Made by a program: the position numbers and the translations under genes | In this document: positions 34,426-61,675 of the stretch, one piece after another | Numbering within the stretch: position 1 is the stretch's first letter | Layout of the letters: each line of letters begins with the position of its first letter | Source: Candidatus Eiseniibacteriota bacterium | Lineage (GTDB): Bacteria > Orphanbacterota > Orphanbacteria > Orphanbacterales > Orphanbacteraceae | Length of the DNA: 64,000 nucleotides | Direction of reading: 5' to 3' | NCBI GenBank assembly: GCA_029262235.1 | Contig: JAJCZU010000008.1 | Location: 124,001 to 188,000, forward strand | Notes under the pieces: generated by a model | What the model was told of the DNA's origin: nothing | Database searches by the model: none | The model's input: the letters and a program-made list of their open reading frames with translations, nothing else

Positions 34426-37400
34426 TCAGTTCTCCTTCGGGTTGGGGGAAGCGGCGACCAGGAGTCGCCGGATCTGGTCGAGATCAGAAGCGTGCTTCAT
34501 GCGGAGATGCGGGCCCCGCTCGAGCGCGGCGGCGAGCGCGACGCGAGCATCTTCAGCGAGAGTTCCTTTTCGTGCATTCGTCGGTTCGACCTGCGCCTGA
34601 TGATACAGGACAACACCGCGATGTGCCATCGCCTCGGGCGACCTGTCGTTCAAACGCAGCGCCGTTTCGACCGCCGCACGCGCATCGTCCAGGTCGGGAC
34701 CGACATCGAATCCCTGCGCCATCCGCCACGTCGCGCGGGCGCAAAGCAGCTCCGATCGCACCAGAAATGCATCGGCTTCGAGCGAGTCGATTCGGATCGC
34801 ATTCGCCATGGCATCGAGTCCATCGCGTATCGGGACAATAGGATCGCCGGCGTTCTTCGCCTGCCAGGCGGCGTTCAGCATCGCAAGACGGCCGAGCGAA
34901 ATGAACGCGGAACTGGAGTTCGGATTCACGCTAAACAGGTGATCCAGTTCGTCTCGCGCCTGCCCCAGACTCGCGGAAGGATCATCGCCGCGTAACATCT
35001 CGTACTCCGCGCGCACGCGAAGCGCCGATGCCGCGTTCAGCTTCGCCCAGTAATGCTTCGGGCTGAGTTCGATCGTCTTGTCACTGTGCACGAGTGCCTG
35101 CTCCACCGCACGCTCGGGATCCCGGCCGAAATCCGCTTCGTACTCCGCGAGTACGGCCCACGCGTGCGCGACGTTGTTGTGCGAGTGCCAGTAGTTCGGA
35201 TTTGCTTCGAGCGCACTCTCGAAAGACGCGATCGCGGACTGAAGAAGATCCGTTGCCGGCTCCCCGTCTCCGATCGCCTCTTTCGCCTTCAATAATATTG
35301 CGTTTCCTCTTCCGTCGATGAGATGAGCGAGGTATGCCGTTTCGGGATTGTCCTCGATCGCGCGCGCATAGACCGCGACCGCGCTGTCGAGCGGGACCTT
35401 GCTCGCCTCGCCGTGGTTCTGGAGATAGTAAGCCTGGTCGTGATACGAGCGAGCCAGATAGTAGGACGCAATCGGCTGCTTCGGGTTCAAGGCGAGAGAT
35501 TGATGATAGGCGTCGGCCGCGTCTTCGAGGGTTGCCAGCGGTTCGACACCGGATCCCGTTTGATGGCGCGCGAGCGCGAGATACGTCGCGCCGAGATTCA
35601 GCAGCACTTCGGACCGGCTCGCATCCCGCTCGTGGGCGGCACGAAACGACGCGATCGCGCGCGCGAAATCTTCGGAAGGATCCTCGCCACGCTTCATGCG
35701 ATCCGACGCGATCGACTTGAACAGAAGACCGATCCGCGTGTCGAGCGCGGCGGAAGGCGCGAGGGCGCGGGCGCGCTCATAAGACGTAACGGCCTCTGCG
35801 TAACTCGCGGACGGGCTCTCGCCGACGCTCCCCTGATGCTGTGCCGCCAGCTTGTGCGCGGTGCCGAGCCGCTCCCACGTGTCGGCCTTCGTGGAGTCGA
35901 CGGCAAGCGCCCGCTTCGCGTCGTCCATTGTCAGAACGAGATGTTCGCCGGGATCGAGCCCGCGGCTGATTCTGTAATCCGCCACCCTCTCGTGAAGGCG
36001 GCACCCCAGCAGGTACGCCTCGGCATCGTCGGGGTTCAGCGTCAGCAGCGCGTCCCTCGCTTCGAGACCGAGACCGAGCGGCGCCTCCACGTTCCCGCCG
36101 CCGCCCGTCACTTCGAGGAACATCATCCAGTTCGCGAGTTCCCCGATCCCCTCGTAAATACGAGGATCGCTTCCGGCGACATCCGATGCCGCCTGGAACG
36201 CAGCGCCGGCCAGTCGAAACGACTCGAGCGCCTGCTCATACTCGCCGCGGTTCGCCTGCTCCTGCCCCCGCGCCGCGAAAACGCGCCCCTCGAGTTCACG
36301 CGCTTCGTAAAACCAGCTGAGCCGGTCGTACGCCTTGTGCGCGCTTCGGAGGGCCTCGTCGAAATCTCCTTCACAGAGAGCGAGGATCGCCGCGACGAAC
36401 TCCGGCGACTCCACCTTGAGCCCCGCCGTCTGTCGCAGGTAATCGAGAGCCGGGTCACGATACTCGATTTCGATCCGACGCCGTTCCGCCTCCCGCTCTT
36501 CCTCGCTCCGGAGCTGGTTCGCGGTTTCGAGCGCATCCTGATACAGATAGCTCATCACGACTCCGAGAGCGTAGGCGACCTCGGGTTCCCGATCACCCGC
36601 CGCCCACGCGGTCTCGAGGCGCGCGCGCGCTTCTTCGTACGAACGCAGCCCGAGAAAACCGCGCCCGAGAGCGTAGTTCCCGGGTCCGCGCGCGAGATCG
36701 CCCACTTCAGCCATGCGCTGTTCGAGCTCGGCCATGTTGCTCATGATCATCGCGCGCTCGGGTCGAATGTCGTGCAGCGGCGCCATCGCGCTGTAGCGCG
36801 CGATCGCCTCGATCCGTTCCACCTGCTGGCCGAACGACTGCGCGAGGCGCGATCGCTGCGCGGCCTCCCACTGGTTGCGCGCGCCCCAGCCGAGCGCGAT
36901 GAGAATGAACACGAGTCCAGCGACCGCGATCCCGACCACGGGTTTGTTGCGCGCGGCTTTGCGACGCAGCCTGTAGAGCAACGTGGTCGGGCGCGCCTCG
37001 ATCGGTTCTCCGTCGAGATACCGCCGGATGTCTTCGGCGAAAGCGCGGGCGGAAACGTAGCGATTCTCGCGGTTCTTGCGCAGGCACTTCTGCGCGATCG
37101 ACTCGAGATCCTGCGGAATCGCGATCGTTCCCTTCCGCATGCGCGGCGGCAGATCGTTCATGACCTGCACGAGAATTTCGAGCGGCGTGTTTCCCTGGAA
37201 CGGCGGGTGCCCGGTCAGAATCTCATAAAACGTGGCGCCGAGGCTGTAGACGTCCGTGCGGCGGTCGAGGTCGTGCACTTCGCCGCGCGCCTGCTCGGGC
37301 GACATGTAAAGCGGCGTGCCGAGAAGCGCGCCGGTCATCGTCATGCCGACCTGATCCGTCTCGCGCGCGAGACCGAAGTCCATGACGAACGGCTTCCATC

Positions 37401-40101: not shown

Positions 40102-40129
40102 TATAGACACGGCTGCAACGGCAGGTCGA
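40100..40129 (-). promoter_or_regulatory. Promoter of the caspase-kinase operon
   Basis: On the minus strand TCGACC (40129-40124), an 18-base spacer, then a perfect TATAAT (40105-40100). Transcription would start near 40093, after the ATG at 40101 but before the GAGGAG site (40087-40082) and TTG at 40074. Confidence 0.5.
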
Positions 40130-40138
40130 TGCCCATCG

Positions 40139-40168
40139 TTGACAGCGCACTCGCGACAGCCGTACCAT
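40139..40168 (+). promoter_or_regulatory. Promoter of the SLOG-caspase/TIR/SLATT operon
   Basis: A perfect TTGACA (40139-40144), an 18-base spacer and TACCAT (40163-40168). Expected start near 40175, giving a leader of only about 8 bases before the ATG at 40183, which has no ribosome site. It is back to back with the caspase-kinase promoter. Confidence 0.5.
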
Positions 40169-40182
40169 GAGAATCAAGCATC

Positions 40183-42411
40183 ATGTCAAACTCTCCGCAC
40201 CCCACTGAGAAGGACGCCCCGGATCAGCTGGCGCAACAAGTTCGCGAAGCTGCAACAGCGGGGCCCGGCTCGCTCCACGCTCTCTGGTTCCAATGGTGCT
40301 CGAAAGAAACACCACCACCCGCCGCTTCGCTCCTCGTGGCGAAGGAGCTGCTCGAGCTCGCGTCGCCCGAATATGCGCTCGAAATTCTCACCGATGTCGA
40401 AGGAGTGCGCGCCGAACAGCTCCGCGCGTTTGCGTATGCGAAAACGGGCAAAGTCGACGAAGCGATCCGTCTGCTCGAAAGTCTGCGCGCGGCGGGACAT
40501 TTCGATTCCGAGACGGCGGGACTTCTCGGCGGACGATACAAGCAGAAATGGCGGAAGACGGGAAATCCGGCGCTTCTGCAGGCGGCGTATCAGGCGTATC
40601 GCGATTCGTACGATGCCGAACCGAACCATTACACGGGGATCAACGCCGCCTCCCTCGCTCTCTCGATCGAAGAACCGGCTGATTCCAAGCGCATTGCGGG
40701 CGAAGTGCTGGCTGCGATCGAGGCCGTCCCCGGGTCAGAAGTCGACTACTGGCAGGCCGCAACGAGAGCGCAGGCGCACATCCTTCTCGGTGATCTGGAC
40801 GCCGCGCGCCGGGAGTATCGCCGCGTCGTAGCCGCCGACTGGGGCGCCGTTCAAAACATCGCGATCATGAGGCGCGAAGCTCGAAGCGACCTCGCGAATC
40901 TGGGAATCGAACCGGGCACGCTCGACGATGTACTCGCGGTGCCGCGCATTGCGGCCTTCAGCGGGCACAGGATCGACGAGGCGAACCGCGCGAAGCCCCG
41001 CTTCCCGGAATCGAAGGTCGGCGAAGTTCGACTTGCCATTCGGGAACGGCTTCACGAACATGCCGTCGGGTTCGGATTCTCTTCCGCCGCCAACGGTGCG
41101 GACATTCTGTTTCTCGAAGAACTCCTGGAGCGCGGCGGGAGCGCGCACGTTGTTCTTCCCTTCCCCCGCGAAAACTTTGCGCGCCTCTCTGTCGGCCCCG
41201 ACTGGCAGCGGCGCTTCGATCGCGCCCTCGATGATCCGCGCGTCGAGGTCGAAACACTTCTCGAAGCCGTACCAGCCGAACCCGCGGCGATCGAAGAGTC
41301 CTTCCATCGATGCAATGAAGCCGTGCACGACAAGGCCGTCCGGTTCGCGGCGCGGCTGAACGAGGAACCGATCCTGCTCGCGGTATGGGACGGACAGCCG
41401 GGGGACGGAGCAGGGGGCACCGCCGACTGTGTCAAGCTGTGGCGCGACGAGGGCCGGGTGGTCGAAACCATTGCGATCGGTGCGGGCGAAAGCGAAAGTG
41501 AAGACGATGCCGCGGGCGGTGCAGACGGCAAAGCTGCCGGGGGCGAACAGCCGAAGCGCATGACCAGGCGCAAGCCCGGGCCGGGCGGCCCCGCGAAACA
41601 CGGAAAGCGCGCGATGGCGCTCGGCGGCGCCATCGTGACGCCGTCTGCGCCGTCACAGGGTCGCAGCGCGTATCGTGCCAGGCACTGTCTCTGCATCGGC
41701 ATCAACGACTACAAGAACTGGACGCCGCTCCAGAACGGCGAGAACGACGCGCGCGAGGTCGCGAACACGCTGCAGGAACGCTTCGCGTTCGAACCACTCG
41801 TGCTCACGAGCGAGAAAGCGACCCGCGACGGGATCTACCGCGCGATCGCCGAAGAACTGAGCCCCGGCGTGCAGGAAGACGACCTCTTCGTACTCTTTTT
41901 CGCGGGACACGGTCATACCGAACACACGCCCGACGGACAGAAGCGCGGGTACGTCGTTCCCGTCGATGCGCCGAAGGGACTTTCGCCGAACCTGATTCCG
42001 ATGTCGGATCTGAGCTTCTGGTGCGGCTATCTCCCGTGCCGCCACATTCTCTATGTCTTCGATTCGTGCTTTTCGGGCCTGCTCACGCTCCGGTCGGGAG
42101 CCGATCGCCGCACGCAGGATATGTTGAAGCGTAAAGCGCGTGTTGCCATTACGTCGGGCGCGGCCGACCAGGAAGTGCTCGACATAAGCGATACGAACCA
42201 CTCGGCGTTTACGAACCAGTTACTCGGCGCGCTGCGGGGCGATCTTTCGTCCGAGCGCGGCGACTTCACTGCAACGGAACTGTTCAGTTTCCTCGAGGAA
42301 AGAGTCGCGAACGTCGCCGCGCAGATCGGGGGCTACCAGACGCCCACGTTCGGCCAGCTCGCCGGACACGAAAGCGGTGACGTTCTCTTTCAGCTGCCAA
42401 AGGAGGAGTAG
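40183..42411 (+). CDS. TPR-like / SLOG-like / caspase fusion protein
   Basis: 742 residues. Residues 40-250 are helical repeats like the TPR-S or MAP3K TRAFs-binding domain (RYKQKWRKTGNPALLQAAY, then AEPNHYTGINAASLAL). Residues ~252-430 look like a Rossmann SLOG sensor: AAFSGHR at 258-263, GFGFSSAANGADILFLEELL, VVLPFPRENF. A linker (435-497) is acidic and Gly-rich, then basic (KRMTRRKPGPG). The C-terminus is a caspase: CLCIGINDYKNW, His576 in FAGHGH and Cys629 in VFDSCFSG. SLOG domains in conflict systems bind nucleotide-derived signals, so signal binding may release the protease. One base separates it from the TIR gene. Not membrane bound. Confidence 0.85.
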   Translation: MSNSPHPTEKDAPDQLAQQVREAATAGPGSLHALWFQWCSKETPPPAASLLVAKELLELASPEYALEILTDVEGVRAEQLRAFAYAKTGKVDEAIRLLESLRAAGHFDSETAGLLGGRYKQKWRKTGNPALLQAAYQAYRDSYDAEPNHYTGINAASLALSIEEPADSKRIAGEVLAAIEAVPGSEVDYWQAATRAQAHILLGDLDAARREYRRVVAADWGAVQNIAIMRREARSDLANLGIEPGTLDDVLAVPRIAAFSGHRIDEANRAKPRFPESKVGEVRLAIRERLHEHAVGFGFSSAANGADILFLEELLERGGSAHVVLPFPRENFARLSVGPDWQRRFDRALDDPRVEVETLLEAVPAEPAAIEESFHRCNEAVHDKAVRFAARLNEEPILLAVWDGQPGDGAGGTADCVKLWRDEGRVVETIAIGAGESESEDDAAGGADGKAAGGEQPKRMTRRKPGPGGPAKHGKRAMALGGAIVTPSAPSQGRSAYRARHCLCIGINDYKNWTPLQNGENDAREVANTLQERFAFEPLVLTSEKATRDGIYRAIAEELSPGVQEDDLFVLFFAGHGHTEHTPDGQKRGYVVPVDAPKGLSPNLIPMSDLSFWCGYLPCRHILYVFDSCFSGLLTLRSGADRRTQDMLKRKARVAITSGAADQEVLDISDTNHSAFTNQLLGALRGDLSSERGDFTATELFSFLEERVANVAAQIGGYQTPTFGQLAGHESGDVLFQLPKEE

Positions 42412-42412
42412 C

Positions 42413-43480
42413 GTGAATCCGCTCGAACCGGAAGGCAAAATCTTCATCAGCTATCGGCGGGCCGACTCACCCGGCGTCGCGGGCCGGCTTGCCGACAGCC
42501 TGAAAGCTTACTTCGGCGAGAATCGCGTGTTCCGCGATATCGGCGGGATTCGCGCGGGGGCGGCGTTCGACGAGGTCATCAACGATACATTGACAGGGAC
42601 CGACGCGCTGATCGTGCTCATCGGCAAAGACTGGCTCACCGCCAGCGACGACAACGGAGTGCGCAGGCTGGACGATCCGGATGACGTGCTTGCGCGCGAG
42701 ATCGAGTTCGCGCTCGAAAGGGACGTGCCCGTGTTCCCGATTCTGATCGAGGATACGCGCATGCCGACCGCGGCGGACCTTCCCGAAAAACTCGCGCCCC
42801 TTGCCAGGCGAAACGGAATCTCGATTACGGACGAACGATGGGACCAGGACGTAACGCGCCTCGCGAAGATCGTGGCGCTCGACATTCCCGGCTCCGTTGC
42901 CGAACTGAAACTCGCGCGCATGCGCGTGCTCGTTCTTTCGATTCTTCTCGGCGTCATGGCGTTCAGCGCCGTTCGATTCGCGTGGACGGCTTACGGGGCT
43001 CACTACTTTCTCCTTTCCAGCAATCCGAATCTCACCGAAATGCAGCGAGCGAATCTCGCGCGCGAGGGAGAGCCGCTCCAACAAACCCTGCCACTCAAAA
43101 TTCTCCCCGGCAGCGCGTCCTATACGAACGAGCCGGGCGGCTGGGGAGACAGCAGTGCCGTCCCCGCATGGCAGGACCGCTTCGCCAGGATCTACGATGC
43201 TCAGTTCCGGTTCTTCCCCCCACTCGCCGCTGTCGTGAACTACATCGGAATCGGGCTTGCCTGTTTCCTGCTCACGCTGCACCTTCCCCTGCTTGCGAAA
43301 GACGCGCACGCTTACGTCCTCGCCGCGATCTGGGCCGGTCTCCTGGGGATGATTCTCTTCCTTCTTCTCTATATGCTGTCGGGAGGACCATTCGATACGA
43401 TTGCTGTGTACGGCGGATCGAATATCATCATCACCGGCATGCTCGTTCTCATGGGCCTGTCCGGTTTCAAAGCGCGGTAA
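42413..43480 (+). CDS. TIR-domain protein with four predicted membrane spans
   Basis: 355 residues. A GTG start is chosen: it lies 6 bases after a perfect AGGAGG and 1 base after the caspase stop. TIR domain 8-~135: KIFISYRRADSPGVAGRL, VFRDIGGIRAGAAF, ALIVLIGKDWL and LAREIEFAL, where Glu96 sits where TIR NADases hold the catalytic Glu. One span at ~170-190 (VLVLSILLGVMAFSAV) and three more at ~270-350 (VNYIGIGLACFLLTL, YVLAAIWAGLLGMILFLLLY, NIIITGMLVLMGLSGF) flank an extracytoplasmic loop of ~75 residues. TIR domains in Thoeris-like systems cleave NAD or make cyclic ADP-ribose isomers; a direct role at the membrane is also possible. Confidence 0.87.
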   Translation: MNPLEPEGKIFISYRRADSPGVAGRLADSLKAYFGENRVFRDIGGIRAGAAFDEVINDTLTGTDALIVLIGKDWLTASDDNGVRRLDDPDDVLAREIEFALERDVPVFPILIEDTRMPTAADLPEKLAPLARRNGISITDERWDQDVTRLAKIVALDIPGSVAELKLARMRVLVLSILLGVMAFSAVRFAWTAYGAHYFLLSSNPNLTEMQRANLAREGEPLQQTLPLKILPGSASYTNEPGGWGDSSAVPAWQDRFARIYDAQFRFFPPLAAVVNYIGIGLACFLLTLHLPLLAKDAHAYVLAAIWAGLLGMILFLLLYMLSGGPFDTIAVYGGSNIIITGMLVLMGLSGFKAR

Positions 43481-44053: not shown

Positions 44054-46129
44054 ATGCGCACCCGAACCGCTCAAACCGCTTCTCGTACCGCCCGTTTTCC
44101 ATTGCTCGCACTGCCCATGCTGATGAGCGTGATCGCCCTGATTGCCATTCTCGCTCTCCGGGCGGACTTTGCCTTCGGGGCGGACGTCGAACCGGACCGG
44201 GAGAACGGCGACCTCGGCCCGCACTTCGTGATCTACGATCTGCCGGCCGACCGGATCGAGAGCCGCCTCGGTATCCCGTACGAAGAGATGGTGCAGCGGC
44301 GCGCGGCCGACTCGAAAGCGGTGCCTTCGGATACGCTGAAGGCTCTCGTGTTTCTGGCACAGTGGGACGACGATCCGGCGGACACGCTGAACCACACGGC
44401 GGCGGATTACGAAACGCTGCTGTTTACGCAGGGCGTCGTGTCTACGGGAAGCATGCGCGAATACATGCTCGAAGCGTCGTACGGCAAGCTCTGGATCGAG
44501 GGCGACGTGCACGGCTGGTACTCGCAGCCGACCTACATTCCGAACGACTACTTCCGGAACTTCTTCGACGCAGCCGACGCCGACATCGATTACTCGGACT
44601 ACGACAGCGACGGCGACGGCTACACGGACGCGGTCTGGATCTTCCACGCGGGCCCGGGCGAAGAAGAGACGCACAACCCCGCGCATATCTGGTCGTTCGC
44701 CGTTTCAGGCCTGAACCACATGACCGACGACGGCGTGATCATCGACCGCTTCGCGTGCAATCCGGAGATGCACGCCGACGGATCGATCACGAGCATCCGC
44801 GTCGCGGCGCACGAAGCGTCTCACGTGCTCGGCCTCCCCGACCTTTACGATTACAACGCGAAGCTCGACACGGTCAGCTATTACACGCCGGGCGACGCCA
44901 ACGACCATCCGCTCATGGACTGGTGCCTGATGGGGTACTACGGCTACAACATCTTCTCGTACGGAACGCGCCAGGATCCCGCGCATCTCTGCGCGTGGTC
45001 GAAGCAGGAACTGGGCTGGGTGAATCCGACGCCGCTTACGACCTCGCAGAAGGATGTGCCGCTCCCGGAAGTGAACCTGAATCCGTTGATTTACAAAGTG
45101 ACGGGCGCCGGTTCGGGTAGCCAGGAATACTTCCTGATCGAAAATCGCAACTCCAACTCCGCCTCGATCTTCGATCACCTGGATTCCGATTTCTCCGCGT
45201 ACTGGCCCTGGTTCACGTTCGGACAGAACCAGAAAGACCCCGGCATGCTGATTCTGCATGTGGATGACGCGATGTCGGGCAACACGAGCGGCGCGCACTA
45301 CCGGGTCGCGGTCGAGGATGCGGGTTACGATCCGGCGACTCCGTGGGACGGCACAAGCGAGTTCAGCGAAGAGTGGTACCCGTACGAAACGAGGATCAGC
45401 GCGCCGTTTTCCGCCGACGATGCCGGGCAGACATCTTTTACGCCGAACACCGTGCCGAATTCGAACTGGTACGGCGCCGGAAGCGGCATCTGGATCACGA
45501 ATATCAGTGCTTCGGGAACCACGATGACCTTCGATATCGGCTTCGGGAACGCGTGGCCCGCCATCGTGAGCCACAGTCCTGTCGCGCTCGATACGATGCT
45601 CATGCCGTCCGAAGTCTTTCTTTTCACTGCGACCGCGATCGACGAAGACCTCGATCCGACGACGTACGAATGGTACGAGGACGGGCTGCTGCAGCAGACG
45701 GGCGCGTCGAACTCGTACTCGTTCACCGCCGGCACGAGCGGCAGCTCGGTCGACATCATGGTCGTCGCGACCGACGGCTCACTCGCAGACTCGCTGACCT
45801 GGTCGATCGACGTCGATCTTTCGACCGGCGTTGCGGACGCCGTGGTTCCACTTGCGGGCCCGGCCATCAGCGCGGCGCCGAATCCGTTCAACCCCACGGT
45901 CGGAATCCGCGTATCGGTGGCCGAAGCGGGTGATCTCACGGTGTCCGTCCACGACATCGCCGGTCGACACGTGGCCGAACTGGCCCGGAAATACGCCGAG
46001 CCGGGCGTTCACGAATTCACATGGCACGGGAAAGACGCGTCGGGCGAAAGCGCGTCCTCGGGAATCTACTTCGTACGCGCTCACACCGGCGCACAATCCG
46101 TGCTCAGCAAGATCGTTCTGCTTCGATAG
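44054..46129 (+). CDS. Secreted M6-type (immune inhibitor A-like) zinc metalloprotease with C-terminal sorting module
   Basis: 691 residues. A long signal peptide (core MLMSVIALIAILALRADFAFG) leads into the peptidase. The zinc site is HEASHVLGLPDLYD (about 254-267): HExxHxxGxxD, the metzincin-like motif of the M6 family. ALVFLAQWDDDPAD near 95 and GSMREYMLEASYGKL are also typical of M6. A beta domain precedes the end, which has AAPNPFNPTVGIRVSV, WHGKDASG, SGIYFVRA and KIVLLR. Degrades extracellular proteins; target unknown. AGAAGG precedes the ATG. It stands alone between the immune-type island and a kinase. Confidence 0.9.
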   Translation: MRTRTAQTASRTARFPLLALPMLMSVIALIAILALRADFAFGADVEPDRENGDLGPHFVIYDLPADRIESRLGIPYEEMVQRRAADSKAVPSDTLKALVFLAQWDDDPADTLNHTAADYETLLFTQGVVSTGSMREYMLEASYGKLWIEGDVHGWYSQPTYIPNDYFRNFFDAADADIDYSDYDSDGDGYTDAVWIFHAGPGEEETHNPAHIWSFAVSGLNHMTDDGVIIDRFACNPEMHADGSITSIRVAAHEASHVLGLPDLYDYNAKLDTVSYYTPGDANDHPLMDWCLMGYYGYNIFSYGTRQDPAHLCAWSKQELGWVNPTPLTTSQKDVPLPEVNLNPLIYKVTGAGSGSQEYFLIENRNSNSASIFDHLDSDFSAYWPWFTFGQNQKDPGMLILHVDDAMSGNTSGAHYRVAVEDAGYDPATPWDGTSEFSEEWYPYETRISAPFSADDAGQTSFTPNTVPNSNWYGAGSGIWITNISASGTTMTFDIGFGNAWPAIVSHSPVALDTMLMPSEVFLFTATAIDEDLDPTTYEWYEDGLLQQTGASNSYSFTAGTSGSSVDIMVVATDGSLADSLTWSIDVDLSTGVADAVVPLAGPAISAAPNPFNPTVGIRVSVAEAGDLTVSVHDIAGRHVAELARKYAEPGVHEFTWHGKDASGESASSGIYFVRAHTGAQSVLSKIVLLR

Positions 46130-49403: not shown

Positions 49404-49440
49404 TGAATACTTTACATGGTATTCACTCCCCCTATACAAT
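49404..49440 (+). promoter_or_regulatory. Promoter with operator-like dyad for the carbamoyltransferase cluster
   Basis: TTTACA (49411-49416), an 18-base spacer and TACAAT (49435-49440) make a good sigma-70 promoter. The -35 lies inside the loop of a perfect inverted repeat, TGAATAC (49404-49410) and GTATTCA (49419-49425). The surroundings (49370-49470) are notably AT-rich for this genome. A repressor bound here would block the -35. The ATG at 49520 is about 75 bases from the predicted start. Confidence 0.6.
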
Positions 49441-49519
49441 AGATAAATACTCTCAGGAAATTTCGTGTGAGTGGAACGCTCGCTGGTGAGCGTCCCGGCT
49501 CGAACAGGTCCGGTGAAAA

Positions 49520-51262
49520 ATGCTCGTTCTCGGAATCAACTGTGCTTATCACGAATCGGCTGCCTGCCTGCTTCGCAACGGGGAGATCGTTGCCGCCGTC
49601 GAAGAGGAACGCTTCAATCGGCGCAAGCGCGCGAAAGCCTCTCTCGTTTCGAACGCGGACGAACTGCCGTCAGCGGCCATCGCCTGGTGCTTCGAGGTCG
49701 CGTCGAAGCAGCTCGGGAAGGAAATCGACTGGTCGTCGATCGATCATGTCGGTTTCTCGATGCTTCCGGAAGAGCGATTCCGTCGCAACACGGAGCACGC
49801 CCACCCCTACTCGCCGAATGCAGGTGATTTTGGAACTGTAGAGGGCGAAACCGATTTTCGCGACCGCTGTCTCGCCGTTCGGGAGAACGTCTCCGCGCTC
49901 GGTTTCGGCGGATCGTTCCATTATATAAGCCACCACCTGTGCCATGCGGCCAGCGCGTTTCATGCTTCTCCCTTCGAAGATGCCGCCGTACTCGTAGTCG
50001 ACGGAATCGCGGAGTTCGCATCGACAACGGCGTACCATGGACGCGGCGCGGCCCTCGAGCAGCTCTGGTCCGTGGACTACCCCCACTCCCTCGGATTCCT
50101 CTGGGAGAAAATGGCGAAGTTTCTCGGGTTCAGCGAGTACGACGCCTGCAAGGTCATGGGACTCGCCTCCTACGGCGACCCGGTGGCGTACGCCCCGCAT
50201 TTTGCCCGCTTCGTGCAGACGGAAAACGGCTTTCGGATCGACGACGGGGTCGTGCGATTTCGAAACGGGAGCTTTCGCGGTCTCGAGGAAATATTCGGCG
50301 TACGGAAGCGGAACGCGCCCGTAAGCTCCTACACGAAGGAGACGGAACCGTATGCCGACATCGCGGCCGCGCTGCAGCAGATGACCGAAGAGATTCTGCT
50401 CGATCTCGCGAAACGGCTGCGCGTGGAAACCGGGAGCAGGTGTCTCGGGCTCGCGGGAGGTGTCGCGCTCAACTGCGTCGCGAACGGACGGATCGCCGCG
50501 GAGAGCGGTTTCGATCGCGTGTTCGTGCAGCCGGCATCGCACGACGCGGGAACCTCGATCGGAGCGGCCCTGGCGATCTGGCATGATCGGCTCGCGAAGC
50601 CGCGCCGCCCCGTAAGCGCATCACCCTACACGGGTCCTGCTTTTACGAACGAAGAGATCCGAGACGCACTCGATGCCTGCGAGTTCTCGTTCGAGAAAAT
50701 CGAAGACATCACCTCTCACGTGGCCGACCTGCTCGCGGACGGAGCCATCGTCGCCTGGTTTCAGGGACACATGGAGTTCGGACCGCGCGCGCTCGGAAAC
50801 CGGAGCCTGCTTGCCGACCCGCGCCGGGAATCGGTGCGCGACATCCTGAACGATAAAGTGAAGCACCGCGAGCCGTTTCGACCCTTCTGCCCGAGCGTGC
50901 TCGTGGAGAAAGCCGGGGCCTGGTTCGACATCGAACCGCAATCCGGCGGTCCCGAGTACTACATGCTCCGCGCGGTCGATGCGAGGGAAGGTGTGCGCGA
51001 CAGAATTCCGGCGGTCGTGCATATCGACGGCACGTGCAGGATCCAGACCGTCGACCGCACGATGAACCCCCGCTATCACGAACTGATCTCGAAGTTCGAA
51101 GAGCGCACCGGTGTCCCCGTACTGCTGAATACGTCGTTCAATGACTCCGAACCGATCGTGTGCACGCCGCAAAACGCGATCGAAACGTTCCGCAAGACAC
51201 GGATCGACTGGCTCGTTCTCGGCGACTACTGTGTTTCCCGAAACGCGCGAGAGCCCGCATGA
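49520..51262 (+). CDS. NodU/CmcH-family carbamoyltransferase
   Basis: 580 residues, matching the family. The N-terminal ASKHA/Kae1-like domain (1-~370) starts LGINCAYHESAACLL and has the metal-binding HHLCHAASAFHASPF segment near 140-155, then VLVVDGIAE and LGLAGGVALNCVAN. The C-terminal domain (~400-575) has GHMEFGPRALGNRSLLADPR and VPVLLNTSFND. These enzymes make carbamoyl-adenylate from carbamoyl phosphate and ATP and carbamoylate a hydroxyl or amine in antibiotics, Nod factors or glycans. Stop and next start overlap (ATGA). First gene of a four-gene cluster; substrate unknown. Confidence 0.92.
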   Translation: MLVLGINCAYHESAACLLRNGEIVAAVEEERFNRRKRAKASLVSNADELPSAAIAWCFEVASKQLGKEIDWSSIDHVGFSMLPEERFRRNTEHAHPYSPNAGDFGTVEGETDFRDRCLAVRENVSALGFGGSFHYISHHLCHAASAFHASPFEDAAVLVVDGIAEFASTTAYHGRGAALEQLWSVDYPHSLGFLWEKMAKFLGFSEYDACKVMGLASYGDPVAYAPHFARFVQTENGFRIDDGVVRFRNGSFRGLEEIFGVRKRNAPVSSYTKETEPYADIAAALQQMTEEILLDLAKRLRVETGSRCLGLAGGVALNCVANGRIAAESGFDRVFVQPASHDAGTSIGAALAIWHDRLAKPRRPVSASPYTGPAFTNEEIRDALDACEFSFEKIEDITSHVADLLADGAIVAWFQGHMEFGPRALGNRSLLADPRRESVRDILNDKVKHREPFRPFCPSVLVEKAGAWFDIEPQSGGPEYYMLRAVDAREGVRDRIPAVVHIDGTCRIQTVDRTMNPRYHELISKFEERTGVPVLLNTSFNDSEPIVCTPQNAIETFRKTRIDWLVLGDYCVSRNAREPA

Positions 51263-52047
51263 TGGTGCGCGCGCATAGGATGCCGGCCGATGTGATCGGC
51301 AAAGTGCGTGAGCCCGTGCTTTTCAAGGGGCTTGCCGGTGCCTGGCCCGCTCTTACGAAATGGACACCCGATTTTCTGCAGCAGATCGCGGGCGACCGGA
51401 TCGTGACCGTCGTGCGCGGCGACCGAGAAGCGAACCACCCCGTATTCGAATCGATGCGGCTTGCGGACTTCTTCGCCCATTGCTTCCGCCCCGACGACGT
51501 AGAAAGCTCCACGCTCTATCTGAAGGAGTTCGACCTCCTTGATGAGCTCCCCGTATTGCTCCAGGACGTCGATTTCTCGCCGCTCGAGTTCCCCGACTCC
51601 CGCTCCTATCACGACGCGTGGATCGGACAGCGAGGAGCGCGAACAGGACTTCATTGCGACATCTTCAACAACTTCCTGACGCATATCGTCGGACGCAAGA
51701 AGGTCACGGTGATCCCGCCCGAAAACACGCCGGACGTCTATCCGAGCGGCAAGTTCGACTACTGCGCGCGCCTTGCGGGCGTGAACGGCTTCGAACCCGA
51801 CCTCGCACGTTTTCCCCGTTTCGCACGCGCTCTCGAGGCCGGCACCACGTACATACTCGAGCCCGGCGACACACTCTATATTCCGAAACTGTGGTGGCAT
51901 CAGGTATCATCCGAAACGCCGACGATCAGTCTTGCCGGTTTCACGGTCGCCCGGAGCGACAGGATCACGCTGCTGGCTGAAAAAGTAAGAAGGATGACTC
52001 ACAACCTCGGCCTCTACAGAAAGGGCAACTGCACCTGCCATGACTGA
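51259..52047 (+). CDS. JmjC/cupin-8 Fe(II)/2-oxoglutarate oxygenase-like protein
   Basis: 262 residues, starting with two ATGs that overlap the carbamoyltransferase stop. PVLFKGLAGAWPALTKWTP at 19-37 is the usual cupin-8 opening. The iron triad is visible: His132 and Asp134 in GLHCDIFNN and His214 in LWWHQVSSE; the YIPKLWWH segment is typical. Family members hydroxylate proteins, amino acids or small molecules. The C-terminus has two close cysteines (NCTCHD). It overlaps the amidase gene by 8 bases. In this context, tailoring hydroxylation of the cluster product is likely, inferred. Confidence 0.85.
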   Translation: MMVRAHRMPADVIGKVREPVLFKGLAGAWPALTKWTPDFLQQIAGDRIVTVVRGDREANHPVFESMRLADFFAHCFRPDDVESSTLYLKEFDLLDELPVLLQDVDFSPLEFPDSRSYHDAWIGQRGARTGLHCDIFNNFLTHIVGRKKVTVIPPENTPDVYPSGKFDYCARLAGVNGFEPDLARFPRFARALEAGTTYILEPGDTLYIPKLWWHQVSSETPTISLAGFTVARSDRITLLAEKVRRMTHNLGLYRKGNCTCHD

Positions 52048-53440
52048 CGATCACGCCGGCATCACTATTTCCGAAGCACTCGCGCTCTTTCGTTCCCGCA
52101 AACTCTCTCCCGTAGAACTGATGCAATCGCTGATCGATCGCGCCGCGAAAGTGGAGCCCGTCGTAAACGCGCTCTCCGAGCAGCATAACGAGCAGGCGCT
52201 TCAGGCGGCCCGCGCGGCCGAAGAGGCGTATGGAAAGCGAAGCTGTGAACCGCGTGCGCTGGAGGGCATCCCCTACTCCGTCAAGGCGAGCGTGGCCGTG
52301 AAAGATTACAAACTCACGTCGGGTTCGCTCATCTACAAAGATCGTATTGCCACGGAGTCCGAGCCCACGGTTGATCGCGTGCGGGAAGCGGGCGGCATCT
52401 TTCACGCGCAGAACGCGTCGCCTGAATTCTCCTGGGCGTGGGTCACCTACTCACGGCTATACGGCACGACGCGCAATCCGTGGAACAGCGAGATCACACC
52501 GGGCGGCTCGTGCGGCGGAAGCGCGGCGGCGGTGGCATCCGGCACCACGCTTCTTTCGATCGGGGCCGACAGCGCGGGGTCGATTCGGATGCCGTCCGCC
52601 ATGTGCGGCGTCGTCGGTTACAAGCCGCCGAGCGGGCGCAACCCGGAAGGCACGATCTACTGCGACGACCTCTATAATGACTACGGGCCGATCACGCGCT
52701 CTGTGGAAGATGCCGCGATCGTGCAGAACGTAATCTCCGGGCCGCACCCGGCCGACAACAACACACTGGAGACGAAGATCACGCTTGCGTGGCCCCCGCG
52801 CGACATCCGCGGGTTGCGCCTCGCGTACTCGTTCGACCTCGGGTTCATGCAGGTGGCGCCGGACGTCCGCGCCAATACGGAGGCCGTTCTGGACCGCCTG
52901 CGCGCGCTTGGCGCAACGGTGGAAGAAGTGGAGATCGACTGGGCGGAACACGCCATGAACGCGGCGGATCTTTACGGCGATTTCATGGCGGGCGATCTCT
53001 ACGCCGAGGCAATGGAGCGGCACGCAGATCTCGTAACCGATTACACGCCCCACTTCGCCGCGATCTGCGCGAAGGCAACGCGCGCAGGCTTCATCGAGTC
53101 GTTCCTCGAAACGAGCCGGGCATGGGCGAAGTTCAGTCCGGTTCTCGAGAAGTACGACACCTTCCTCTGTCCGACCGTGGCCACAACCGAAGTGCCGGCG
53201 ACGATGAAGCCGTGGGACGACATGCAGATCAACGGAAAATCCGTCGACCGCTGGGTCTTCACGCTGCTCTTCAGCATGTTCCGAACGTGTCCGGTGCTTG
53301 CCGTGCCGTCCGGCCTCGGCAATAACGGCGTCCCGACGGGGGTGCAGGTCGTCGGTCGTAAGTTCGACGACGTGACAGCGTTTCGTGTCGCGGCGGCGGC
53401 GGAGACGAAACTGTCGCTCTTCGATCACGAAGCGCGCTAG
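52040..53440 (+). CDS. Amidase-signature family hydrolase
   Basis: 466 residues. The Ser-cisSer-Lys triad is complete: Lys82 in YSVKAS, Ser157 in PGGSCGGSAAAVASG and Ser181 in DSAGSIRMPS. A Cys stands where the second Ser of GGSSGG is usual. Such enzymes cleave or transfer amides; relatives include GatA and small-molecule amidases. No GatB or GatC is nearby, so a tRNA role is unlikely. Overlap of 8 bases with the oxygenase gene and a 34-base gap to the ligase gene place it in the same operon. Could release ammonia or cut an amide in the product. Confidence 0.88.
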   Translation: MTDDHAGITISEALALFRSRKLSPVELMQSLIDRAAKVEPVVNALSEQHNEQALQAARAAEEAYGKRSCEPRALEGIPYSVKASVAVKDYKLTSGSLIYKDRIATESEPTVDRVREAGGIFHAQNASPEFSWAWVTYSRLYGTTRNPWNSEITPGGSCGGSAAAVASGTTLLSIGADSAGSIRMPSAMCGVVGYKPPSGRNPEGTIYCDDLYNDYGPITRSVEDAAIVQNVISGPHPADNNTLETKITLAWPPRDIRGLRLAYSFDLGFMQVAPDVRANTEAVLDRLRALGATVEEVEIDWAEHAMNAADLYGDFMAGDLYAEAMERHADLVTDYTPHFAAICAKATRAGFIESFLETSRAWAKFSPVLEKYDTFLCPTVATTEVPATMKPWDDMQINGKSVDRWVFTLLFSMFRTCPVLAVPSGLGNNGVPTGVQVVGRKFDDVTAFRVAAAAETKLSLFDHEAR

Positions 53441-53474
53441 CCCCTCTTTCATTAGAGCGAGCCGCGGAGGAAGC

Positions 53475-55376
53475 ATGGCGGGTGTATTCGGGTTTGCGGG
53501 ACTGCGCACGGCTTCGATCGATGCCGTTCGCACGCGCCTCGAGCGCCTGCTCATTCGAAGCGAGAGACAGCGAGCCACGCACTGGACCGGCACCGATTGC
53601 GTTCTCGGCGTCGTACATCACGCCTTTGCAGCGGGCCCCCTGATCGCGTTCGACCCCGATTCGGGCGCGCGCCTCGCATTCGACGGAGAAATCTTCGATC
53701 GTGGCGGGTCAGAAGAGCGGCTGACATCATCGGCCGGGCCTGGTTCGGGCGAACTGTCCGACGCGGAAGTCGTACTGCAGCTCTATCTTCGCGGCGAAAC
53801 CGAGGCGCTCGGCAAGCTGAACGGCGGCTGGTCGGCCGCCATCGTATTCGAAAACCGCAATGAAGTCGTGCTGATCACGGACCGCTTCGGAAGCCGGCCG
53901 CTCGTCTATGCGCTCACGCCCTGGGGGTTGGCGTTCTTCCCCGAGGTCAAAGGCGTGCTTGCTTTCGATGACGTACCGAAGCGCCTTGATCCGGCCGGCG
54001 TGGCGCAGCGTTTCATCTTCGATCACCCCGTTGGTGAGGACACGCTGGTCGAGGGCGTGAAGCTCGTTCCCGCGGGAGGGATCGTGCGCTTTGCGAACGG
54101 TGGCGTGGAAACGAGTCGCTACTGGACGATTCAGTGGCCGGAGCGCTACGACCTGATGAAGGAGGAGGAATGGGGCGACATCTACATGCGTCATCTGGAG
54201 CGCGCCGTCGCGATGCGCGTCCAGAAGACCCCGCGCGCGGGCACGACGCTCAGCGCAGGAAACGACACGCGCCTTATTGTCGCCGGGTTACCGAAAGACG
54301 GCGAACCCGTTCACTCGTTCACATTCGGACATCCGATGTCACGGGATCGCCGGTACGGGAGGCGCGTCGCGAAAGCGGCGGGGACGATTCATCACGAGGC
54401 GACGATCGACCCGGATACATACCTCGGCGCGGTCGACTACTACAACTGGGTCTGCGACGGAATGGCGCCCCCGCGTCACAGCCAGATCGCGGTGCTCGAC
54501 CCGATCATGCGCCCCCACGTGCAGGCCGTGCTCGAAGGAGTGCCGGCGGCATCGCAGGCGTTTTACCGGTACGACGGCTTCCCCGGATTCGAATTTCTCG
54601 AACCGATCGACGAAGATGTCTATCGAAAGAACCACTTCGGCGCGCGCGCGGAGTTCCACCCGGACGGCTTCCGGGCACTCATGCGCTCCCCCTGGTCGGC
54701 GGCGGCCGATGCGCCCGCAGACACGCATCGCGCCCTCCTCGGGCACGGTTTTCCGACGCTCGTGATGAACCGTTCTCTCGAATGGTCGATCTCCCAGCGG
54801 CTGCGCCGTTTCAGTAATACCGGCGCCCTGTTTCTTCGCGAATTCGTCGAGGTGAGACAGCCGTTTTACGACTACGCTCTCTTCGACCACGCGAAAACGA
54901 TCCCCGGCTCGATCTACGTCGACATGAAGTTCATGCATCGCATGATCGCGCGCTCAGCGCCGCATCTGGCCGGAATCCCGCTGCACAAGACGGGGCTGCC
55001 GGCCGACCCCACGCTGCTCCAGCAGTTCCTTTCCTGGCGTCTGGTTGCCGCGCGACAGAAGATTACGCGGATTACGGGCGGCCGAATCGAGCTGAACCGA
55101 CCGACACGGACGTTCGACTGGCGCCCGTGGCTCGACGGTCCGTTTCGCGCGCGCGTGGAATCCGTACTCCGTGATGAACGCGTGAGCGACCGCGGGCTCT
55201 TTCGCCCCGAGGTGGTCGCCACAATTCTCGACGACCACTTCAGCGGGCGGAAAAAACAGGGCAAGCTCGTCTGGTCGCTCTACGGCTTCGAACTCTGGTG
55301 CAGACAGTTCTTCGACGGCGAATGGGAGAGAACGATGCCGGGCAGCAAGCCGGCCGCAGGGGACACGATCGACTGA
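53475..55376 (+). CDS. Asparagine-synthetase-like ligase with degenerate glutaminase domain
   Basis: 633 residues, GGAGG ribosome site 4 bases before the ATG. The N-terminal half has the class II glutamine amidotransferase fold (AFDGEIFDR, LNGGWSAAIVFENRNEVVLITDRFGSRPL segments) but residue 2 is Ala (MAGVFG) in place of the obligatory Cys, so it cannot hydrolyse glutamine in the normal way. The C-terminal ATP-binding part keeps a PP-loop, SAGNDT at 260-265, in place of SGGxDS. Beta-lactam synthetase has the same loss and uses an internal amine. The gene would form an amide or similar bond with ATP in the cluster product. Converges with the sulfatase-like gene, 7 bases apart. Confidence 0.82.
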   Translation: MAGVFGFAGLRTASIDAVRTRLERLLIRSERQRATHWTGTDCVLGVVHHAFAAGPLIAFDPDSGARLAFDGEIFDRGGSEERLTSSAGPGSGELSDAEVVLQLYLRGETEALGKLNGGWSAAIVFENRNEVVLITDRFGSRPLVYALTPWGLAFFPEVKGVLAFDDVPKRLDPAGVAQRFIFDHPVGEDTLVEGVKLVPAGGIVRFANGGVETSRYWTIQWPERYDLMKEEEWGDIYMRHLERAVAMRVQKTPRAGTTLSAGNDTRLIVAGLPKDGEPVHSFTFGHPMSRDRRYGRRVAKAAGTIHHEATIDPDTYLGAVDYYNWVCDGMAPPRHSQIAVLDPIMRPHVQAVLEGVPAASQAFYRYDGFPGFEFLEPIDEDVYRKNHFGARAEFHPDGFRALMRSPWSAAADAPADTHRALLGHGFPTLVMNRSLEWSISQRLRRFSNTGALFLREFVEVRQPFYDYALFDHAKTIPGSIYVDMKFMHRMIARSAPHLAGIPLHKTGLPADPTLLQQFLSWRLVAARQKITRITGGRIELNRPTRTFDWRPWLDGPFRARVESVLRDERVSDRGLFRPEVVATILDDHFSGRKKQGKLVWSLYGFELWCRQFFDGEWERTMPGSKPAAGDTID

Positions 55377-59242: not shown

Positions 59243-61675
59243 CTATCGCAACAGGGTCAGTTTTATCTCGGTCGTGCGGCCGTCGGCCGTTTGCAGCTTC
59301 GCGAAATAGACGCCGCTCGGCACCGTGCGCGCACGATCGTCGCGACCGTCCCAAGCCGCATCGAACGCTCCGCGATCGAGCTCTTTCGCGATCAGGCGCC
59401 GGATCTCCCTTCCCTGCGGACTATATATAGAGAGTGCAACGTGTCCCCGTGCGGGATTCGAGAAGCGAATCTTCGTCTGCGGGTTGAACGGATTCGGGAG
59501 CGCATCGAGTGCGAGGGGCGCCGTTTCGGGTATCGGCCGGTCGCCTTCGGAGGACCCGTCGCCGCCGGATGATTCGTCATCACCGGACGACTGCACTCCT
59601 GTCGGCACGGCAAAGTTCACAATCGCGAGATGCGTGTTGTCGCTTTCGTCGAGTTCGCCGACTTCATCGAGAAAGTCGAGTTCGTAACCCAGAATGTGCA
59701 GCCCCCCCGTCGCCACCGTGATCGGATAGTCTTCGAGCGTCACGTAGGAGCTCACAGGAACGCCCCCCTCGACAAGCCACCATGCGTACTGCGATCCGTC
59801 GAGCGTGAGACGCACCCGAAAATCGCCCGGAATGTCATAGAGCCCGTCGTTCAGGAACGCGAAACTGACATACGCCGTTTCCCCCGCCATCAGCGAGTCG
59901 ATCGTACGCTCGCCCGGCATGTCCGCTGCCGTAAGAGTCGCACTCCAGCCGAGCGGCACGTAGGGCGTGAGATCAGGCGCGGCCAGGCGATCGGTCGTGT
60001 AGATATTGAGCCCCTGGGTCGGGAAATCGCGGCGATCGCTCCATGCCGCGTGAATCGTGCTCCCGCTGATGCAGCCCGCCACGGAGTGTAGCGTCGGATT
60101 CACGTACGGCAGATCCGAAGCGACTTCCACCTCGCCCCAGAGATCGGGATGCCCGTCGAGCGCGGCCACACGCGTCGCGAGATAGAACTCGTCGCCACCG
60201 GGCGGCGCGTCGAGCCAGTAGCAGCCGACGATCCCGTCCTTCGCGAAAATCGTGGGGCCGATGCTCTCGAACGGATCGCTCACCATCGCGTACGGTCCGA
60301 ACACCTGGTCAAGACCGTCCCACGAGTACGCGTAGACGATGTCGCCGTCGATGTTGCCGAGGCCGTCGTCATTGTCGAGCTGAAACACCATGTAGACTTT
60401 TTCGCCCTCGCTCGCGATCGCGGGAAACCCGCAGGTCATGTTCGTCCAGTCGCTCAGGTTCGTCGGGCTCACGAACGCGCCGGCCATGCTGTCCGCAACG
60501 GCGAGGATATCGATCACGCCCGTGTTCGGATCCTGCTCCGCGTTCATGAAGTAGCAGGTCGACCCCTTGAGCGCGACGTCGGGCCAGTAGTCGGGATAGC
60601 CGTCCGGTACGAAGTAGTCGAACTGGATCGTCTCGCCGCCGTCCGTGCTCCACATCCAGAGCAGCGTCCACTCGTATTGGAGCAGGTCCCAGTTGATCGT
60701 GTACCACGACGCCGCGATGAAGACCTTGCCGTTGGTCCCCTGGCGCTTCGCGGCGATCGCCGGGGCCATACAAGGCTCGCCTACGCTGAGCCCGTGCACC
60801 CAGTCCCACACGGTCGGGTCGTCCGGGCCGGCCGTCTTCGCGCGCAGCACGTAACCGTCGTCGCGAATCCACGTGACGAGCAGATAGCCGCCCGCGTCGA
60901 TCGCGATATCGGGGTGATACTCGTCGAGACTGAAGGACGGCATCTCCCACACTTCCCACGTCGCCCCGTCGTCCATGCTCCGCGCGATATGAATGTCGCG
61001 GTCCGTACCGCCGAGGTCTGTCGCTTCGAAGACTGTATACAGATTGTTGCTGCCGGGGCATACGGCAATCGATACGTACTCGTCGTTCATGCTCGTCGCG
61101 TTCGCCAGCAGATGATCGGCCGACCATGCGGCGGCGGTCTTGTGCGTGGCCACCCGGTCTCGCGAAGTTCTGCCCGCGTTCCCGTTCGGCTGACCGGTTC
61201 TACTCCCTGGTGCCTGCTCCGCAACGCGCCCTCGCAGCAGGTTCGTCGCCTCGCGAATGGGCGCCGCTATGCGCTCGTCGCTCGACGAAACCATCCCGCC
61301 TGTCAGCGTGCGCGCCTCGTGCGTCAGGTCGACGTCCCGGAACGAAACCGGCGGGCGCTTTGCCGGGCGAATGCTCGTTGCAGCCTGCGTTCTCCCCGTC
61401 GTTCGACGCGTAGTGTGCGTGTTCAAGACGCCCGGCGCTGGGAACGGCCGTGAGCCTCGCATGGCGTCCGAGCCGCCGGATATCGCACGACCCGCAGAAA
61501 TTCCGGGCGCGCGCGAAGCCTCGATGGGCCGAACCGTGGGCCTCCCGTCAGCCTGCGCGTCCGGGGCGTCCGCGAATGCGACACGGGAAGCGAGAACGAG
61601 AACTCCGCATGCTGCGAGACAGCAGATCAATACGAGTTCTACCGGCCGTATGGACGAAGGCGACATTGCTTGCAT
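59243..61675 (-). CDS. Secreted Asp-box propeller protein with CARDB-like domain and C-terminal sorting module
   Basis: 810 residues. Hydrophobic leader (about 12-32, VELVLICCLAACGVLVLA) ends near AFADA. A basic, low-complexity stretch (40-170) precedes a propeller with an Asp-box SMDDGATWEVW and STDGGETIQF, about 185-560. A beta domain (~590-700, TAYVSFAFLNDGLYDIPG, LDEVGELDESDNTHLAIV) looks like CARDB. An acidic Ser/Gly/Asp linker then leads to the end: DALPNPFNPQTKIRFS, WDGRDDRA, SGVYFAKL, IKLTLLR. Function unknown. Confidence 0.83.
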   Translation of the reverse strand: MQAMSPSSIRPVELVLICCLAACGVLVLASRVAFADAPDAQADGRPTVRPIEASRAPGISAGRAISGGSDAMRGSRPFPAPGVLNTHTTRRTTGRTQAATSIRPAKRPPVSFRDVDLTHEARTLTGGMVSSSDERIAAPIREATNLLRGRVAEQAPGSRTGQPNGNAGRTSRDRVATHKTAAAWSADHLLANATSMNDEYVSIAVCPGSNNLYTVFEATDLGGTDRDIHIARSMDDGATWEVWEMPSFSLDEYHPDIAIDAGGYLLVTWIRDDGYVLRAKTAGPDDPTVWDWVHGLSVGEPCMAPAIAAKRQGTNGKVFIAASWYTINWDLLQYEWTLLWMWSTDGGETIQFDYFVPDGYPDYWPDVALKGSTCYFMNAEQDPNTGVIDILAVADSMAGAFVSPTNLSDWTNMTCGFPAIASEGEKVYMVFQLDNDDGLGNIDGDIVYAYSWDGLDQVFGPYAMVSDPFESIGPTIFAKDGIVGCYWLDAPPGGDEFYLATRVAALDGHPDLWGEVEVASDLPYVNPTLHSVAGCISGSTIHAAWSDRRDFPTQGLNIYTTDRLAAPDLTPYVPLGWSATLTAADMPGERTIDSLMAGETAYVSFAFLNDGLYDIPGDFRVRLTLDGSQYAWWLVEGGVPVSSYVTLEDYPITVATGGLHILGYELDFLDEVGELDESDNTHLAIVNFAVPTGVQSSGDDESSGGDGSSEGDRPIPETAPLALDALPNPFNPQTKIRFSNPARGHVALSIYSPQGREIRRLIAKELDRGAFDAAWDGRDDRARTVPSGVYFAKLQTADGRTTEIKLTLLR

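Follow-up and report, generated by a model that had tools for sequence, protein, structure and literature searches.

In the biosynthesis of crocagin, a ribosomally synthesized and post-translationally modified peptide (RiPP), a carbamoyltransferase works alongside a dioxygenase by which hydroxyls are introduced; the pathway further depends on a precursor peptide, on proteins that bind the peptide and on a methyltransferase (PMC10070186). Ligases with the asparagine-synthetase fold are represented in the XrtA/PEP-CTERM amidotransferase family, which includes WbpS (PMC7468200). Here we describe a four-gene operon, A-B-C-D, on the + strand of a 64,000-nucleotide stretch of bacterial DNA (hereafter the window; positions 124,001 to 188,000 of contig JAJCZU010000008.1, assembly GCA_029262235.1, Candidatus Eiseniibacteriota bacterium), in which an O-carbamoyltransferase, a JmjC-type oxygenase, an amidase-signature hydrolase and an asparagine-synthetase-fold ligase are encoded at positions 49520-55376. 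The window belongs to a genome of 4.47 Mb in 11 contigs, from a phylum of which we know no cultured member.

The presence of the operon is confirmed, and in it known kinds of enzyme are combined in a new way; a gene cluster of carbamoyltransferase, cupin and asparagine synthase was not found described in the literature covered, most subscription journals lying outside that coverage. The best-supported reading of its function, which we hold tentatively and to which we give somewhat less than an even chance, is the small-molecule tailoring already proposed in the initial annotation. In other words, the operon would constitute a minimal pathway, free of non-ribosomal peptide synthetases (NRPS) and polyketide synthases (PKS), for the tailoring of one small amino-acid-like or peptide-like metabolite.

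Organization of the operon

Gene A (49520-51262) encodes a TobZ/NovN-type O-carbamoyltransferase of 580 aa, gene B (51259-52047) a Cupin_8/JmjC Fe(II)/2-oxoglutarate oxygenase of 262 aa, gene C (52040-53440) an amidase-signature hydrolase of 466 aa and gene D (53475-55376) an asparagine-synthetase-fold, ATP-dependent ligase of 633 aa devoid of the glutaminase Cys. The four enzyme classes first assigned to this place are borne out by Pfam domains that all score above their curated cut-offs: Carbam_trans_N (PF02543; 165 bits, cut-off 24) and Carbam_trans_C (PF16861; 233 bits, cut-off 27), corresponding to the Kae1-like and YrdC-like domains of A, Cupin_8 in B (130 bits), Amidase in C (PF01425; 260 bits), and Asn_synthase (83 bits) together with GATase_7 (49 bits) in D. 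The genes do overlap or nearly touch, as had been noted: A and B share 4 bp (ATGA, the end of A being the start of B), B and C share 8 bp, and C and D are separated by a gap of 34 bp with a GGAGGA ribosome-binding site 5′ of D. Equally, the operon is free of NRPS and PKS genes, in agreement with the initial annotation. The GC content of the four genes (0.60-0.64) matches that of their surroundings (0.632 for the window). None of the PADLOC anti-phage defence models matches A-D, and a defence role for the four genes was dropped for this reason.

Conservation and distribution

Conservation was followed in a phylum comparison set of seven genomes, representing seven species of one family. In the sister species of the same genus (G001), the four genes stand in the same A-B-C-D order and with the same overlaps as in the window, with protein identities of 82% (A), 87% (B), 85% (C) and 81% (D) and about 80% nucleotide identity. 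The ratios of non-synonymous to synonymous substitutions (dN/dS) between the two species are 0.16, 0.08, 0.11 and 0.19 for A to D, respectively, which indicates purifying selection on all four genes. Given that order and overlaps are kept and that dN/dS values lie between 0.08 and 0.19, the set is no annotation accident. In the sister genome the region is distributed over three contigs, one with an upstream kinase gene and the start of A (C180), one with A-B-C (C443) and a third (C212) with C and D preceded by the end of B. Their ends overlap with 98% (364 nt) and 94% (731 nt; L038:1-731 against L011:2512-3242) identity. As these overlaps are imperfect, the contigs may derive from different strains, and the 94% overlap suggests either a strain mixture or two copies in the sister metagenome-assembled genome; every gene adjacency is still observed on one single contig. 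The upstream kinase is common to the window and the sister species, whereas the downstream flank differs, being a sulfatase gene on the other strand in the window and a PhoB/PhoR-type pair in the sister species.

The initial annotation had proposed a search for co-occurrence of the four families and considered that genes not conserved together would speak against a cluster. The neighbourhood is indeed conserved in the sister species, but B and C were not found in the phylum's five remaining species, a distant amidase of 30-31% identity aside. The only counterparts of A in these five species are paralogues of other clades; for D there is a 65% identical orthologue in one of them (G004), besides paralogues of about 40% identity. 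For B, a scan of the genome collection, which reaches close relatives only, returned nothing above 39% identity outside the sister species. Co-occurrence was followed more widely in plasmids and in genome samples from two further phyla, and failed to extend beyond the genus: no full A-B-C-D set was found in the sampled Acidobacteriota, Pseudomonadota and Gammaproteobacteria, the four genes as queries yielded no set in plasmids, and in none of the sampled genomes with a match to the profile of the A clade does B or D adjoin it.

This distribution bears on the possibility that a native D-type gene and acquired A, B and C genes catalyse unrelated reactions and have only a promoter in common. Such an arrangement would fit the orthologue of D in G004, which has no A, B or C alongside, the ancestry of A, which differs from that of the phylum's own carbamoyltransferases, and the occurrence of the full set in one genus. 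We consider it quite improbable, however, as gene order and overlaps are those of the sister species, with which nucleotide identity is about 80%, and all four genes are under purifying selection, yet the downstream flank has changed.

The carbamoyltransferase A and the oxygenase B

NovN (9s2t) aligns with A over its full length (E=6e-92), and GdmN and TobZ also match. The metal-site HxxxH and two Asp residues (H138/H142, D161 and D342) align with NovN and are invariant in the clade of A, and the KHRExFRP and NTSFN motifs are retained. A would transfer a carbamoyl group to a hydroxyl. The likeness to TobZ, NovN and GdmN thus extends to both domains and to the metal-site His and Asp residues; A differs in that it falls outside the NovN/GdmN branch and that genes for macrolides, aminoglycosides or aminocoumarins are absent from its vicinity.

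In a carbamoyltransferase tree of 40 rows, A and its sister-species counterpart lie within an eight-row clade (SH-aLRT, the Shimodaira-Hasegawa-like approximate likelihood-ratio test, 99). This natural-product-type clade includes members from Gammaproteobacteria, Mycetohabitans, Streptomyces clavuligerus and the pseudomonadotal genome G593. It is separate from the two carbamoyltransferases inherited vertically in the phylum and, given also the varied contexts of its members, A was probably acquired horizontally. The clade is rare, with profile matches in three of 398 Pseudomonadota, one of 369 Gammaproteobacteria (two samples that overlap) and none of 396 Acidobacteriota genomes. Its members stand beside an NRPS gene (Mycetohabitans), beside a cluster of YcaO/SagB type for a thiazole/oxazole-modified microcin (TOMM) with an amidase (G593), between P-type ATPase and radical S-adenosylmethionine (SAM) genes, or alone. 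In two small genomes (L129:4472-9152 and L130:294-3897) the carbamoyltransferase gene overlaps a heavy-metal-type P-type ATPase gene, and in the former a radical SAM gene with weak similarity to RaSEA likewise overlaps it. The G593 locus (L128:8808-17970) comprises the carbamoyltransferase, a precursor-like open reading frame (ORF) of 120 aa, a YcaO/SagCD fusion, a SagB/ThcOx dehydrogenase, an amidase and a fatty-acid desaturase, and is apparently a TOMM cluster with O-carbamoylation.

The enzymes might alternatively tailor a RiPP-like peptide whose gene lies elsewhere, and D would then serve as its macrolactam cyclase, of lasso type or another. This would be in line with the last type of context, where YcaO, SagB, an amidase and a precursor-like gene stand next to an A-clade homologue. 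The crocagin pathway offers a precedent for carbamoyltransferase and dioxygenase together, and the model for lasso cyclases is matched weakly by D, with 52 bits against a cut-off of 525. A precursor gene of RiPP type was found neither in nor beside the operon: its internal gaps do not exceed 34 bp, and translation of the three + strand frames of the upstream gaps in the two species, followed by comparison, revealed no conserved small ORF or precursor peptide. A recognition element, a leader peptidase and a transporter gene are likewise absent. The operon has no counterpart of the precursor peptide, peptide-binding proteins and methyltransferase of crocagin, and we know of no AsnB-fold or amidase-signature gene in that pathway. 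A peptide product of this kind is accordingly very improbable.

The nearest solved structure to B by sequence is that of JMJD5 (E=5e-29; 30% identity across the catalytic domain). The iron triad HxD...H (H132, D134 and H214) is invariant in 11-12 homologues. The model of B, of moderate confidence (predicted local distance difference test, pLDDT, 71), is a double-stranded beta-helix that matches the folds of JMJD5, TYW5 and FIH, with a Foldseek template-modelling score of about 0.7 to JMJD5. JMJD5 is a eukaryotic protein, whereas B is bacterial, 262 aa long and encoded within a metabolic operon. From its family membership, B would act by hydroxylation and not by demethylation. Homologues of B adjoin amidinotransferase, ATP-grasp, short-chain dehydrogenase/reductase and major facilitator superfamily genes in Streptomyces sp. 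NBC_01420, and an NRPS gene in M. endofungorum.

The ligase D and the amidase C

The fourth gene product had been described as an asparagine-synthetase-like ligase. This holds for the fold, but not for glutamine-dependent amidation, since D has neither the glutaminase nucleophile nor the acceptor motif of AsnB. The model of D (pLDDT 84) has TsnB9 as its nearest fold, followed by beta-lactam synthetase and AsnB, and with these enzymes and CarA D has in common an Ntn-like (N-terminal nucleophile) N-domain and a PP-loop ATP domain. The N-terminus reads Met-Ala (Met-Pro in the sister species), so that the AsnB-type nucleophile Cys2 is missing. The PP-loop SGGxDS is present as the conservative variant SAGNDT (LSAGNDTR), with S260, G262 and D264 invariant. 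The acceptor-site motif GEGxDE is replaced, D having VLEGVPAAS where AsnB has VLSGEGSDE and TsnB9 ALSGEAADE. The C-terminal region is about 100 aa longer than in these enzymes and unmatched. With Cys2 lost and the PP-loop retained, D should be able to form an acyl-AMP but unable to use glutamine.

The scores of D against named NCBIfam models lie well below their cut-offs: 117.5 bits (cut-off 267.1) for AsnB (TIGR01536), 117 bits (816.9) for the XrtA/WbpS-type amidotransferases (TIGR03108) and 113 bits (570) for N-acetylglutaminylglutamine amidotransferase (TIGR03104). Judged from its sequence, D is neither an ordinary asparagine synthetase nor a glutamine-dependent amidating enzyme. The absence of the glutaminase Cys from an AsnB fold is a trait that D shares with beta-lactam and carbapenam synthetases, whose catalysis relies on a Tyr-Glu dyad and a Lys. 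The residue after the conserved Gly of D is Val356, and the alignment to beta-lactam synthetase ends at residue 331; as far as the model goes, the likeness is one of fold only.

The LEG[VIA][PS] sequence is common to all aligned phylum paralogues of D, and D belongs to a subfamily native to the phylum. Three homologues from Acidobacteriota retain Cys2 and a D/E-G-G-D-E motif, and a further homologue lies within a ddaG-containing (dapdiamide-type) locus of Pantoea. Next to the orthologue of D in G004, and convergent with it, is a gene for a StrB-type inosamine-phosphate amidinotransferase (L039:8413-9456; 1bwd, E=5e-135). It was rejected as a member of the system because of its convergent orientation and because no StrB-like gene occurs in any of the phylum's six remaining genomes.

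A more far-reaching proposal is that D defines a new subfamily of glutaminase-less AsnB-fold ligases with unprecedented acceptor chemistry, such as the cyclization of a beta-amino acid or the coupling of two amino acids, and that together with B and A it would make a carbamoylated compound of an undescribed class with four enzymes and without NRPS or PKS. We regard this as decidedly unlikely.

The fold of D also raises the question of glycan tailoring. Here A would carbamoylate a sugar hydroxyl, as NodU does, and D would amidate a uronic acid, as WbpS does, of a surface polysaccharide or of a sugar by which secreted proteins are attached to the surface, while B and C would adjust an amino-acyl substituent. 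In favour are the 117 bits of D on the model of the family that contains WbpS, the setting of wider relatives of D in Acidobacteriota, which lie among GT2 glycosyltransferase genes and an ABC-2 exporter (with another carbamoyltransferase at 7 kb from one such relative), and a PMT_2-family glycosyltransferase gene two genes downstream of the operon, on the other strand. On the other hand, those 117 bits compare with a cut-off of 816.9, and D has lost the glutaminase Cys required for amidation from glutamine. Unlike WbpS, WbqG and the XrtA-system amidotransferases, with which it shares the fold, D lies outside a glycan locus: the operon contains no glycosyltransferase or sugar-nucleotide gene, and its downstream flank is unconserved. 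Moreover, A falls outside the NodU/polysaccharide-type clade, in which a paralogue from the same genome (L063) is found. Glycan tailoring is therefore considered unlikely.

In C, residues K82, S157 and S181 align with the Ser-cisSer-Lys triad of GatA, which is the best sequence alignment of C in the PDB. Signature sequence and triad are those of GatA, AtzE and PRK06169-type amidases; no named NCBIfam model gives C a score that reaches its cut-off, and C differs from GatA in having no GatB/C partner. This combination could be taken to mean that C, like GatA, frees ammonia for the Cys-less D, so that the two enzymes would act as a split amidotransferase forming a primary amide, with A and B tailoring the same molecule. 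The triad and the GatA alignment of C, the missing Cys2 of D, and the adjacency and joint conservation of the two genes agree with it. Against this stand paralogues of D that are equally devoid of the Cys and next to which no amidase lies in the stretches read, which indicates that Cys loss is not tied to C. In addition, C resembles GatA no more closely than it does ordinary amidases (186 bits on the GatA model, cut-off 481), and neither a GatB/C-like partner nor a known tunnel accompanies it. Such a division of labour is thus improbable.

A possible tailoring pathway

In the small-molecule tailoring pathway that we favour, B would hydroxylate a C-H bond of the substrate with Fe(II), O2 and 2-oxoglutarate. 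From carbamoyl phosphate and ATP, A would form carbamoyl-AMP, whose carbamoyl group it would pass to a hydroxyl; B is a plausible source of that hydroxyl. D would activate a carboxylate as acyl-AMP and couple it to an amine, its own glutaminase domain being unusable, whereas C would hydrolyse (or transacylate) an amide and thereby trim, unmask or supply the amine partner. We infer one shared molecule for all four enzymes, as well as the order of the steps and the class of substrate; a hydroxylase adjoining an O-carbamoyltransferase, next to one enzyme that would make amides and one that would break them, favours a single amino-acid-like molecule.

The overlaps, the order kept in the sister species, purifying selection and the changed downstream flank count in favour of this pathway, together with the intact active sites of A, B and C, the SH-aLRT value of 99 for the clade of A, the biosynthetic loci in which homologues of B and D occur and the TsnB9 and beta-lactam synthetase folds of D. 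Several observations weigh against it. The operon is known from one genus only, with a single sister species, and a transporter, a resistance gene and a core-scaffold gene are all absent from it. A profile search with D in 396 Acidobacteriota genomes returned distant relatives only (24-29% identity), the nearest of which lie in glycosyltransferase loci. The nearest plasmid homologues of C, 43-45% identical, are found in apparently catabolic or uptake settings, from which C could either cleave amides or act as a transacylase. Finally, the second half-reaction of D is unpredictable, as both acceptor features of AsnB type are gone.

If the pathway is as proposed, it would be among the smallest self-contained operons of natural-product type, from a little-known phylum, and its enzyme classes would be of a kind that escapes genome mining based on NRPS and PKS scaffolds. 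D itself provides an example of the asparagine-synthetase fold without glutamine use and without the standard acceptor motif, in which the use of ATP has apparently been retained.

Promoter and neighbouring loci

A sigma-70-like promoter, TTTACA-N18-TACAAT, lies 5′ of A (49411-49440, + strand) and agrees with the consensus at 10 of 12 positions. Its core, TTTACA...TAnAAT, and an upstream AACAAAA are kept in the sister species within a diverged stretch. A perfect palindrome, GAATAC-N8-GTATTC, covers the -35 box (49405-49424) as a possible operator; it occurs once in the window (0.01 expected) and once in the whole genome, and is missing from the sister species. The palindrome is thus probably non-functional or species-specific. 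Of the one regulated promoter claimed at first, therefore, the promoter is present and its core conserved, but its regulation, for which the palindrome was the likely basis, is unsupported.

Elsewhere in the window, positions 34426-43480 carry two caspase-domain genes, one encoding a caspase-kinase fusion of 1894 aa with tetratricopeptide repeats (TPR) on the - strand and one with a TPR-S domain on the + strand, followed by a TIR-domain gene. PADLOC component models for caspase, kinase and TIR match here, and the region is a possible defence or cell-death island. The operon region is flanked at 44054-46129 and 59243-61675 by genes for large predicted secreted proteins with a FlgD-Ig/T9SS-like C-terminal sorting domain (SGIYFVRA...LSKIVLL), recognized by eye as of type IX secretion system (T9SS) type.

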